Position numbers and translations under genes: made by a program. From the NCBI RefSeq assembly GCF_005518285.1, contig NZ_SJDU01000026.1, positions 1 to 12,576 of the forward strand: a DNA stretch of 12,576 nucleotides, in the 5' to 3' direction. The notes beneath the pieces were generated by a model. That model was not told the DNA's origin and made no database searches. It saw nothing but the letters and a program-made list of their open reading frames with translations. Below are positions 2,796 to 12,465 of this stretch, one piece after another; positions within the stretch are counted from its first letter, which is position 1, and the number at the start of each line of letters is the position of its first letter. The DNA comes from Brachyspira catarrhinii. GTDB taxonomy: Bacteria; Spirochaetota; Brachyspiria; Brachyspirales; Brachyspiraceae.

Positions 2796-3007
2796 AAAGT
2801 TTTTGTTATTTACAAACGCCAAGAGATTTGATTAAAGCGGAAAAAGTTTTAATGGACGCTGGAATCGAAGTCGTTATTCGTCCCGCTCCAGAGCCTGTTT
2901 TCGGAGTATGCAACATGGCTATCGACATAGAAGACAACGATAAAGTTTATATAGTTTCGTTATTGGAAGCGGCGGGTTTAATGGTTAAAGTAAAAGATGT
3001 AGAATAA
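2789..3007 (+). CDS. DUF3343 protein, putative Se/S carrier
   Basis: This small 72-residue protein matches the DUF3343 pattern: an N-terminal strand (FCYLQTPRDLIKAEKVL), a helix, then AGIEVVIRPAPEPVFGVCNMAI with a conserved-position Cys41, and a C-terminal strand-helix-strand. The family has been described as a putative selenium/sulfur carrier, with Cys41 the plausible carrying residue; Cys6 is the only other cysteine. Its ATG lies inside the end of the desulfurase gene (7-bp overlap), with AGGA (2777-2780) eight bases upstream, so translation is probably coupled. Placement directly after a PLP Cys/Sec lyase supports a role in receiving Se or S from it (inference). It has no signal peptide or membrane segment. 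Its stop TAA is immediately followed by the next gene's ATG. Confidence 0.82.
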   Translation: MVKSFCYLQTPRDLIKAEKVLMDAGIEVVIRPAPEPVFGVCNMAIDIEDNDKVYIVSLLEAAGLMVKVKDVE

Positions 3008-5482
3008 ATGAATAATAATTTGAAAGATGAAATAGGCGATATGCGACACGGTCGGCGCGTCTGCGGGCATGTTGCCTCAGGCGCCTACGCGGAAGCGTTA
3101 AACCTCCTTAAAACCAGCAATGTAATAAAACCGACAAGATATTTGGGCGGCGAGATAAACGCGATAATCAAGCCCAATGCGGATTTTAAATTTGTAATGT
3201 CTTTTGCAGATTTGTATGAAGTGGCGATAAGCAATTTGGGACTTTCTATACTTTACGAAGTTATAAATTCCATCGAATACGCTTCCTGCGAGAGAGTTTA
3301 CGCCGTAGCTCCCGACTTTGAAAAATTATTAAAAGAAAAAAATATTCCTCTATATACTTTGGAAACTTTTAGCAGAGTGAAAGACGCCGATGTTTTAGGT
3401 TTTACTCTTCAATACGAATTGATTTATACGAATATTTTGCAGATTTTGGAATTGAGTCAAATACCGATTTTTAGAGAAGAGAGAGGAGAAGATTTTCCAA
3501 TAATAGCCGCTGGAGGTCCGAGCGTTTATAATCCTTTTCCGCTTGCCAATTTTATAGACATTTTTTTAATGGGAGAATTCGATTACGAAATAAAAAACTT
3601 TGTCGATATAATTTATAATCTTAAAAAAAATAAAGCTACAAAAGACGATATATTAAAAGAATTGTCAAAATTGGAATACGCTTATATTCCGAAATATCCT
3701 AAAAAAACCGTGAAAAGAATATTCGTTGAAAATATTAACGATATGCCTTATGTAAAAAAACCTTTAGTGCCGATTTTAGAAGGAATACAAAATAGAATTT
3801 CGGTTGAAATAGCGAGAGGTTGCGCTCATAGTTGCAGATTCTGTTTGGCGGGAATAACTTATCGTCCCGTTAGAAATAGAACTATTGAAAAAATAATTGA
3901 CATTGCGATGGAATCTTTGGAAGCTACGGGTTTTGGAACTTTGAATTTATTTTCGCTTTCGGCTGACGATTATCCTAATATATTCGATTTGATTGATTAT
4001 CTTCAAACTTTGGGAGAGCATAAGGGCTTTTCTTTGTCTCTGCCTTCTTTGAGAATAGATTCTTTCGATAAAGAAACGGCAAATAGAATAGCGCAATTTA
4101 AAAAAACGGGTTTAACATTCGCGTTGGAAGTCGGAAGCCATGAATTGAGAGAGAAAATAAACAAATCGATGGACGAAGACGCAATATTTAATATTCTTTC
4201 CGATATTCAAATTATGGGATGGAAAACGGTAAAAATTTATTTCATGATTGGCTTTACAGAAAATCCCGACAAAGAAGCGGACGAAATCATTGAAACTTTG
4301 GAGAAAATGATAAAGGCGTCAAAAAATAAAGTAAAAATAAACGCCGCGATAAATGTTTTCGTTCCAAAGCCTCATACTCCGCTTGAAAATTTGAATCAGC
4401 TTACGGACGAAGAAGCGATTGTTTGCATAGAAAAAATAAAAAACAGATTCAGAAAAACAAAAGTTACGATTAAATATCATCCTCCAAGAATGGCGGAAAT
4501 CGAAGGAATAATATCGAGAGGAGACGAAATTGTCGGAGATATAATTTACGAAGCATATAAAAATGGAGCGAGATTTGACGCTTGGGTTGAATATTTTAAA
4601 TACGATATTTGGAAAAAAGTCATTGAAGATAAAGGACTTACGATAAAAGAATTAATTTCAAAAAAGAAAGAAACTCCATGGAAATGCGTGGACACTCTTA
4701 TAAGTCAAAAATTTTTAGGCAGAGAATACGAAAGATTTCAAAACGGAAAATTTACCGATTATTGTTTTACGGGAAATTGTCAAAACTGCGGAATTGATTA
4801 TAAAACTTACTGCCATAAATATAAAAAGGAAATATTAAATAAAAATTTTGCGGAAATGAAAGAAGAATTGAAGACTTTGAAAAAGAGAGATGTTTTTTCA
4901 GTCAATTATAAAATATTTGCGAAATTCAAAAAGGAAGGAATTTCATCTTTACTCGGAATGCATGATTTATCTCGAATTATGATTTCTGCCTTGAAAATTG
5001 CGGGAGCGAAAATATCTTTGAGCAAAGGTTTTCATCCGCTTGAAAAAGTTTCTTTCACTCCGCCGACTCCTTTTGCCTGCGAAAGCGAAGCGGAATTTAT
5101 GGAAGTTAGTTTAACCGACAATATAGATATAGATTTATTAAAAAATAAAATAAATAATCTGCTCGCTCATATTGGAATAAATATTTTAAAAATTGAATTT
5201 ATTACGATTAATCTAAAAAAAATTAATACCATCCCAAAAAATATTTTATACGAAATAGAAACGAATAACGATAAAGCGGCGTTCGATTTGCTTAAAAATA
5301 AAGAGAAATTAAAAGAAAGCGAAGAGCGAAACGGAGATTATTTGATTATAATGGGTGAAAATAAAATATTGATTACTTTGCTTGACGGAAACGAAAAATT
5401 GATTCGAGTGCGAGATATAAAAAATTATCTTCTTAAAAAAAATATTGTTATTAAAAGAATAAAAAAAATTGGATTTAGTTGA
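3008..5482 (+). CDS. B12-binding-type radical SAM protein fused to DUF2344 (TIGR03960/TIGR03936 type)
   Basis: This 824-residue protein has three parts. Residues about 43-250 form the B12-binding-like N-domain, starting at the conserved RYLGGE (44-49) and including MSFADLYEVAISNLGLSILYE and AAGGPSVYNPFPLANFIDIFLMGE. Residues about 260-500 are the radical SAM core, with the 4Fe-4S motif GCAHSCRFC (Cys272, Cys276, Cys279). A Cys-rich stretch (Cys586, 591, 594, 602) follows, then a DUF2344 domain from about 633 (KGFHPLEKVSFTPPTPF). The two halves are separate or fused in different bacteria; here they are fused. The substrate is unknown; in other genomes such genes often neighbour ribosome-related genes such as rng and rplU. 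The start is the ATG touching the previous stop (TAAATG), with only a weak Shine-Dalgarno; the other in-frame ATG is codon 12. Residues about 12-30 come from a GC-rich, hairpin-forming stretch foreign in codon use and are probably an insertion. Confidence 0.88.
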   Translation: MNNNLKDEIGDMRHGRRVCGHVASGAYAEALNLLKTSNVIKPTRYLGGEINAIIKPNADFKFVMSFADLYEVAISNLGLSILYEVINSIEYASCERVYAVAPDFEKLLKEKNIPLYTLETFSRVKDADVLGFTLQYELIYTNILQILELSQIPIFREERGEDFPIIAAGGPSVYNPFPLANFIDIFLMGEFDYEIKNFVDIIYNLKKNKATKDDILKELSKLEYAYIPKYPKKTVKRIFVENINDMPYVKKPLVPILEGIQNRISVEIARGCAHSCRFCLAGITYRPVRNRTIEKIIDIAMESLEATGFGTLNLFSLSADDYPNIFDLIDYLQTLGEHKGFSLSLPSLRIDSFDKETANRIAQFKKTGLTFALEVGSHELREKINKSMDEDAIFNILSDIQIMGWKTVKIYFMIGFTENPDKEADEIIETLEKMIKASKNKVKINAAINVFVPKPHTPLENLNQLTDEEAIVCIEKIKNRFRKTKVTIKYHPPRMAEIEGIISRGDEIVGDIIYEAYKNGARFDAWVEYFKYDIWKKVIEDKGLTIKELISKKKETPWKCVDTLISQKFLGREYERFQNGKFTDYCFTGNCQNCGIDYKTYCHKYKKEILNKNFAEMKEELKTLKKRDVFSVNYKIFAKFKKEGISSLLGMHDLSRIMISALKIAGAKISLSKGFHPLEKVSFTPPTPFACESEAEFMEVSLTDNIDIDLLKNKINNLLAHIGINILKIEFITINLKKINTIPKNILYEIETNNDKAAFDLLKNKEKLKESEERNGDYLIIMGENKILITLLDGNEKLIRVRDIKNYLLKKNIVIKRIKKIGFS
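3041..3100 (+). repeat. GC-rich triple-hairpin element inside the radical SAM coding region (candidate in-frame insertion)
   Basis: Forty of these 60 bases are G or C, more than twice the background. Three stem-loops follow each other. SL1 is CGAC/GTCG with loop ACG (3044-3054). SL2 runs 3054-3085: 54-58 pairs with 81-85, 61-63 with 78-80, and 65-69 with 73-77, with bulges at 59-60 and 64 and a TGT loop. SL3 is ACGC/GCGT around a GGAA (GNRA-type) loop (3087-3098). The stretch is translated in frame as residues 12-31 and contains CGG and CGC Arg codons, whereas Arg in the surrounding genes is mostly AGA. No copy of the whole element occurs elsewhere in the window, so calling it a repeat family member is inference. 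Confidence 0.5.
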
Positions 5483-5591: not shown

Positions 5592-6296
5592 ATGAATATG
5601 TTGGAAAAATCTGAAGATATAATAGCCTATATAAAAAATTCCAAAAAGAAAACGCCCGTTAAAGTTTATATAAAAGGAAAATTGGAAAATATAAAAACTG
5701 ACGCTAAAGTTTTTTCTTTTGGAGATTTTTATTTTATAGTCGGAGATTACGAAGATATAAAATCAATTTTGGAAAATAATAAAAACATGGTAGAATATTA
5801 TCATTTGGAAAACGACAGAAGAAATTCTGGAGTTCCAACTTTGGATTATTTGAATATTAACGCGCGAATAGAGCCTGGAGCGATTATAAGAGATAAAGTA
5901 AAAATCGGAGACAACGCCGTTATTATGATGGGAGCGATTATAAATATCGGAGCGGAAGTAGGCGAGGGAACTATGATTGATATGGGAGCAGTTTTGGGAG
6001 GACGAGCCATAGTCGGCAAAAATTGTCATGTCGGAGCTGGAGCGGTTTTGGCGGGAGTAATCGAGCCTCCTTCGGCTAAACCCGTTATAGTCGAGGATAA
6101 TGTTATCATTGGAGCAAATGCCGTCATAATCGAGGGAGTTCATATTGGGAAAAACGCGGTAATCGGAGCGGGAGCGGTTGTCATAGAGGATGTGGAAGAT
6201 AATCAAGTTGTAGTTGGAAATCCCGCAAAAGTCGTAAAAAATGTCGATGAAAAAACTGCGAATAAAACAAAATTAGTTGACGATTTGAGAAAATAA
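5592..6296 (+). CDS. dapH: 2,3,4,5-tetrahydropyridine-2,6-dicarboxylate N-acetyltransferase (DapH)
   Basis: DapH acetylates tetrahydrodipicolinate with acetyl-CoA, the branch-defining step of the acetylated diaminopimelate/lysine pathway in the cytoplasm. The 234-residue length equals that of characterised DapH proteins (about 236). Residues 1-85 are the DapH N-domain ([22 protein letters not shown], then ENDRRNS at 73-79). Residues about 90-205 are a left-handed beta-helix of hexapeptide repeats, with the diagnostic [37 protein letters not shown] and [11 protein letters not shown] stretches. The start ATG has AGGA (5579-5582) nine bases upstream; a second ATG two codons in is possible. The next gene, 77 bases on, is an aminotransferase fitting the following step, so the two probably form an operon. 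Confidence 0.95.
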
Positions 6297-12427: not shown

Positions 12428-12465
12428 TTTTTGTCGTCTGCCCGCTTTTAGCAATTTTTAAGGTG

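Follow-up and report, generated by a model that had tools for sequence, protein, structure and literature searches.

The stretch of DNA analysed here, a window of 12,576 nucleotides (nt) from Brachyspira catarrhinii (contig NZ_SJDU01000026.1; C185 of the assembly that we call G000), carries a GC-rich 63-nt segment near the 5' end of a radical SAM gene, and this segment is very probably made of three nested copies of a 21-bp dispersed double-hairpin family of the genus Brachyspira. The host open reading frame (ORF), at 3008..5482 on the plus strand, encodes 824 amino acids (aa) and is, by translation and family match, a B12-binding radical SAM protein (TIGR03960/TIGR03936). The nearest relative (G021) has a radical SAM protein 93% identical to it, with named Brachyspira relatives at 80-82% identity, and its DNA aligns on either side of a gap that corresponds to positions 3035..3097 of the window (plus strand), that is, to an in-frame insertion of 63 nt or 21 codons with 70% GC. 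The mean GC of this genome is 30.7% in the contigs examined, 11 of which were chosen for earlier matches. Because the residues upstream of the gap correspond (MNNNLKDEI in the window, MKDNLKNEI in the relative), the start codon is to be placed before the insertion, which comes directly after codon 9. The original prediction, made from the sequence alone, had placed an inserted segment at 3041-3100; the insertion stood, and its true extent starts 6 nt earlier and ends 3 nt earlier. A recount again gave 40 G or C among the 60 bases of 3041-3100, and the stretch is read through in frame without a stop, as had been claimed. The radical SAM gene was found in 22 of the 25 other genus genomes searched; the match to all 22 orthologues starts only at residue 23-29, and the 21-residue segment is absent from the N-terminus of every one of them.

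The three copies emerge from an exhaustive decomposition, in which two 21-mers were removed from the 63-mer in each of the 43 x 22 possible ways and every result was scored in bits. We distinguish X-type units, with hairpin lengths of 11+10, from Y-type units, with 10+11. The best decomposition reached 80.4 bits and the runner-up 60.1 (a margin of 20 bits), and both of its splits fell at 12/9, although the score did not demand 12/9. Its innermost element, copy C (Y type, 21 nt, 3056..3076, plus strand), reads CGC-GTCT-GCG / GGC-ATGTT-GCC and scored 32.8 bits against three Y units that excluded copy C itself. It splits copy B, of X type and on the plus strand, into the first 12 nt (3044..3055; hairpin CGAC-ACG-GTCG plus G) and the last 9 nt (3077..3085; TCAGGCGCC), and copy B splits copy A, of Y type and on the minus strand, into the first 12 nt (3086..3097; hairpin CGC-TTCC-GCG plus TA) and the last 9 nt (3035..3043; CATATCGCC on the minus strand). 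Copies B and A scored 23.9 and 20.5 bits, each equalled by 0 of 20,000 shuffles, and when copy C was held fixed, the sum of A and B was reached by none of 2000 shuffles of the remaining 42 nt. Hairpins are present at 3044-3054 (CGACACGGTCG) and 3088-3097 (CGCGGAAGCG), about where they had been proposed, and fit the left hairpins of two element copies, whereas a "bulged" hairpin at 3054-3085 did not hold up as a single hairpin and is one element split by another. We infer the order A, B, C: copy A would have inserted first, on the minus strand near the 5' end of the radical SAM gene, copy B then into the internal site of A, 12 nt from its left end, and copy C last, into B at the corresponding internal site. 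The right hairpin of B has one broken pair and that of A is mostly eroded, so the decay agrees with this order of age. A repeat search of 3000-3140 returned one chance-like direct repeat and 0 inverted pairs.

Comparison of copies defines the unit of the family as 21 nt with two small hairpins back to back, starting and ending with C. The left hairpins, 10-11 nt long, include CGC-TAAA-GCG, CGCC-GAA-GGCG, CACC-GAA-GGTG, CAC-TTACA-GTG and others, and the right hairpins, of the same length, include GGC-AGAC-GCC, GAC-AGTC-GTC, GTC-AGTC-GAC and GGC-ATGTT-GCC. BLASTN of this genome gave five matches with E < 0.1 besides the window, all to the middle of the insert, and six weaker ones (E 1.5-2.7) to its middle or elsewhere, and no second copy of the whole 63-mer. 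With up to 2 mismatches allowed, the 15-mer core of copy C, TGCGGGCATGTTGCC, has 11 occurrences in this genome and its reversed control has none; with up to 1 mismatch, the core is found in 1 of the 26 genus genomes, namely this one. Copies lie within intergenic palindromic repeats of this genome (TCATTGCGAA...GAAGCAATC), in a nuclease-like gene (contig C204) and a methylase-like gene (contig C34), both named by eye and the latter without a Pfam match, and elsewhere. A separate, restriction-modification methylase gene (L188, contig C143 of the same assembly) has a 126-nt in-frame insert that is an intergenic-type palindromic repeat (TCATTGCGA type) with one 21-nt unit, and near residue 80 the same methylase differs by 7 residues and by a further 2.

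Within the 26 genus genomes, the X pattern gave 69 matches in 17 genomes with 1 control match, and a pattern with a freer right hairpin gave 155 matches in 18 genomes with none in the reversed control. Across 296 genomes of the phylum, a narrower pattern had matches in 14, every one of them a Brachyspira genome from the set of 26, and in 0 of the 270 sampled spirochaete genomes outside the genus. The suggestion of a spirochaetal in-frame palindromic element was thus right in kind, as the segment is an in-frame insertion of a dispersed repeat that forms hairpins and is related to others in this genome and in the genus. In 23 unselected contigs of G000 (320,791 nt, a sample that excluded six more contigs of 200-207 nt), no X-type copy of at least 18 bits was found and one Y-type match reached 22 bits. 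Five genomes (G001, G006, G014, G018 and G025) have in common a distinctive N-terminal region of the radical SAM protein, where the match starts at residue 23-24. All five have 0 matches to X-type patterns, so the distribution of the family may follow phylogeny. On IMG/VR contigs, 23 stretches match one unit pattern; 7 of these, from five contigs, are AT-rich (25-31% GC), and the other 16 (58-71% GC) are probably chance. The second unit pattern had 0 matches on IMG/VR contigs.

The hairpins are supported by family-wide covariation and not by folding energy. Across 66 distinct X units, 96.8% of the cells at the seven pairs are standard pairs, and pairing drops to 27-54% when the register is slid; the unpaired cells comprise ten at 2/10, three at 4/8 and two at 13/20. 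Compensatory changes, proposed earlier as a check on the hairpins, are present: two-sided changes occupy 64 cells, compared with 21.8 in shuffles, and 0 of 500 shuffles were as high. Folded as one RNA, the region is at the level of its dinucleotide shuffles (z = 0.32), 113 of 200 of which do equally well or better, so that the earlier picture of a folded segment does not stand on its own.

The 12/9 split of the insert is also the split found elsewhere in the genus. Each of 69 distinct contexts was searched by joining k nt upstream to 21-k nt downstream of the unit, with k from 3 to 18, and a product that formed a double hairpin with 6/6 outer pairs was counted as a perfect host. Such hosts appeared at k = 12 in 12 of the 69 contexts and in none at each of the 15 other offsets; judging from these sequences, nested copies enter the host element at one place, 12/9. 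When 71 contexts, which were the loci returned first by the searches and not a random sample, were grouped by flank similarity into 40 clusters, 26 clusters lay in ORFs of at least 100 aa, and these 26 cover all six frame/orientation combinations. Some unit-bearing ORFs have matches to phage protein families, namely portal, tape measure, baseplate hub and minor head. Over the 40 clusters, C stands at -4 in 18, a pyrimidine at -3 in 31 (G in 0) and A at +3 in 26, with P values of 6e-6 (-4), 3e-4 (-3) and 1e-4 (+3) from one-sided binomial tests against simple base frequencies, uncorrected for 24 positions. The flank preference is weak, and the nested acceptor YGG/NCA agrees with the preferences at -3 and +3.

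Occupied and empty sites were compared among relatives. In PDDEXK_2 (PF12784) genes, DNA alignment found two sites that hold exactly 21 nt in some relatives and are empty in others; at one of them, some relatives carry a second 21-nt copy inside the first. A gene that also occurs on IMG/VR contigs, with no Pfam or PHROG match, has three sites that differ by exactly 21 nt in the DNA alignment, one of them being a nested copy. At the six sites aligned as DNA there is no clear target duplication, though next to short runs (TT or TATA, for example) a duplication of one or two bases may be hidden. Sites beyond these six were compared as protein or by pairwise DNA comparison: a difference of 7 residues or 21 nt was found in the 994-aa restriction-modification methylase that carries the 126-nt insert (Eco57I family), between two PDDEXK_2 paralogues of G021, in a UDP-galactopyranose mutase gene (PF03275), in the C34 gene and at two places of the C204 nuclease-like gene (counted by eye on the sequences). 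Differences of 63 nt comprise the window insertion and one more in C34. A 7-residue insertion in GalE (L209) is plausible; the gap relative to solved GalE structures is longer and blurred, and the closest protein in the examined part of the relative is only 43% identical.

A scan of 303,871 aligned nt between contigs of G000 and G021 gave 77 insertions of at least 12 nt with good flanks in G000 and 66 in G021, of which 5 and 6, respectively, had at least 45% GC; as eleven of the contigs had been picked for earlier matches, these counts give no unbiased rate. The five GC-rich insertions of G000 measure 63, 63, 21, 21 and 12 nt; L062, which is 21 nt long, is not recognisably a unit. Of the six in G021, five have 12 nt and the sixth has 15 nt. 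At several places (L054, L114, L119 and G021), GC-rich tandem short repeats (for example CGGCT, CACGT and CAACG) break the AT-rich sequence. The window itself holds a second, eroded element of X type (TGCTAAAAGCGGGCAGACGAC; 12433..12453, minus strand; 24.1 bits), which sits in a 29-nt insertion relative to G021, directly after the stop codon of the last ORF.

From these comparisons we infer that the elements are mobile, or were so recently. Beyond this, we tentatively propose that a dedicated enzyme may actively mobilise the Brachyspira 21-bp double hairpin by way of an RNA or single-stranded copy, that the acceptor site inside the element may be a defined one, and that host and phage proteins may grow in 7-residue quanta. 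An activity acting in trans would recognise the double hairpin, present as RNA or as single-stranded DNA, and join the copy to its target without a clear target duplication, weakly favouring sites that have a pyrimidine at -3 and A at +3. Copies may persist in genes because 21 nt equals 7 codons and most copies contain no stops: a tolerant loop or terminus that takes one up would gain seven residues, and most damaging insertions would be purged. The simplest reading of their role would be that it is selfish or neutral.

Several points weigh against these proposals. Mobility is read from presence and absence, and the Y1 transposase (PF01797), a candidate for the mobilising enzyme, was found in 0 of 26 genus genomes by a search whose control was positive in 5 of 14. 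The 12 nested cases come down to three combinations of host and guest: one PDDEXK_2 site accounts for seven, the gene shared with IMG/VR contigs for one and a single 42-nt pair for the other four, so there may have been as few as three nesting events. This 42-nt pair stands at four unrelated flanks (L187, L191, L199 and L203), and nested pairs may therefore move as wholes. In the window, the eroded right hairpin of copy A makes the outermost nesting level less certain than the inner two. The second 63-nt in-frame insert, in C34 (L051, about 5762-5824), is undecoded beyond one X unit at its edge. In L273 (contig C925), a PDDEXK_2-like gene whose family was assigned from its similarity to a relative, the difference from that relative, in which the site is empty, is 20 nt, and the unit carries an in-frame TAG at which the gene is truncated; the insertion itself thus need not respect the frame, and the copies seen in intact genes have probably passed selection. 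As to structure, the number of pairs with a two-sided change was 4 compared with 3.1, a value reached by 69 of 500 shuffles, and the search patterns fixed part of the stems, leaving columns 3, 4, 8 and 9 free in the 69-match search or 4, 8, 13 and 20 in the 155-match search and restricting columns 2/10 to R/Y, so that the informative pairs are 2/10, 3/9, 4/8 and 13/20. A sequence-free scan for double hairpins found 25 in G021 (1.56 Mb), where shuffling left 12, and 27 in the G000 contigs, a partly selected set, where it left 6; with so small an excess, structure alone does not single out the family. Finally, the source assembly is fragmented (2.69 Mb in 987 contigs) and 88% complete. A plain assembly error is not a likely source of the 63 nt, because the same 21-nt family is found at occupied and empty sites of other genomes.

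Among the other explanations, the one that survives best involves no dedicated mobility, the units being spread by replication errors (template switching or hairpin slippage) or by gene conversion from existing copies. We consider this unlikely: the lack of a clear target duplication at the aligned sites and the mosaic repeats in intergenic palindromes of this genome speak for it, but exact, clean-ended 21-nt units at unrelated sites and a single 12/9 nesting point would be hard to obtain in this way, and gene conversion needs flanking homology, whereas the copies are at unrelated sites. Movement of the repeats by a transposase of the kind associated with repetitive extragenic palindromic (REP) sequences (REP-associated tyrosine transposase, RAYT) or by an IS200-like Y1 transposase is improbable. 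Small multi-copy GC-rich hairpins do resemble REP units in size (20-40 bp according to PMC3733652), but the lack of PF01797 matches in the 26 genomes, the absence of a fixed tetranucleotide tag beside the units and the 26 of 40 clusters inside ORFs argue otherwise. It is more doubtful still that selection has kept a structured mRNA element (an attenuator or translation modulator) in the 5' coding part of this gene, as the original prediction had also considered; the insert lies about 30 nt past the start codon and small hairpins are possible, but the folding energy is at the shuffle mean, the segment is missing from all 22 other genus orthologues found, and relatives of the element are spread over unrelated genes and, among 26 ORF-spanning clusters, over every one of the six frame/orientation combinations. 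Least credible is one longer composite palindromic element of the Rickettsia kind, inserted once, which would suit the in-frame insertion of a palindromic dispersed repeat and a 42-nt pair that may travel whole, but not a unit that measures 21 nt when found alone, a 63-mer that resolves into three family members at the place nested copies use elsewhere, and a genome in which BLASTN returns that 63-mer once.

The double-hairpin family of Brachyspira shares features with several known systems. The small dispersed repeats (SDRs) of Nostoc and its relatives, which Elhai and colleagues are said to have described in 2008, reportedly form families of 21-27 nt and reportedly combine a shared predicted secondary structure with compensatory changes, a minitransposon location and nested copies. 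The likeness, drawn from description, lies in a dispersed unit of 21 nt, a conserved structure and compensatory changes. The differences are that SDRs belong to a cyanobacterial phylum, that Brachyspira copies are often in ORFs, and that their occupied and empty sites differ by 21 or 63 nt (one by 20 nt), with nesting at 12/9 within the element. For SDR5, precise insertion at a fixed place in an octamer is described in passages of PMC4390886. The Brachyspira family also resembles the double-hairpin elements of fungal mitochondria in its two adjacent hairpins and the lack of a clear target-site duplication, and differs from them in residing in bacterial genomes and AT-rich IMG/VR contigs. The mitochondrial elements are GC-rich within AT-rich DNA, and we know of none that is a fixed 21-nt codon-sized unit. 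They consist of two adjacent hairpins (Paquin et al. 2000, cited in a passage of PMC2800124), and for those of Allomyces, according to the same source (PMC2800124), an RNA intermediate was proposed because there are no flanking duplications.

The earlier comparison with Rickettsia palindromic elements holds for in-frame insertion, with L273 as the one exception, and fails for size, for the architecture of two tiny hairpins and for nesting, the Brachyspira unit having 21 nt or 7 residues. The Rickettsia elements measure about 100-150 bp and encode a segment of 30-50 residues. Passages of PMC10969869 give them as ~150 bp and in frame in protein-coding genes. REP sequences, REP doublets forming hairpins (REPINs) and bacterial interspersed mosaic elements (BIMEs), described in PMC3116915 and elsewhere, are tiny multi-copy hairpins that are extragenic and linked to RAYTs; the Brachyspira units differ on both counts, as no PF01797 match was found in the 26 genus genomes and most clusters, from non-random loci, are in ORFs. 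Nor do they conform to miniature inverted-repeat transposable elements (MITEs), since the units start and end with C and show no clear target duplication at aligned empty sites. Both tiny mobile hairpin repeats and the in-frame insertion of larger palindromic elements in Rickettsia are thus known kinds. The literature searched, mostly open-access titles and abstract openings, yielded no report of such elements in Brachyspira, nor of a 21-nt unit in a spirochaete genus that does both and nests at 12/9.

If active mobilisation is true, few known mobile elements would be as small as the Brachyspira units, which to our knowledge would be the smallest to be routinely translated. This raises the question of how a 21-bp sequence without room for genes or classical ends could be inserted precisely, and because the occupied and empty sites are clean, the structure covaries, the acceptor place is one and the length is a multiple of the codon, the mechanism is testable. 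The units would also be a source of 7-residue insertions in enzymes, such as the radical SAM protein, UDP-galactopyranose mutase, the methylase and perhaps GalE. Since units lie in both enzyme and phage-like ORFs, annotation and phylogeny in the genus may contain translated repeat DNA. As far as its sequences tell, the family looks like some of the smallest mobile DNA ending up as protein-coding sequence.

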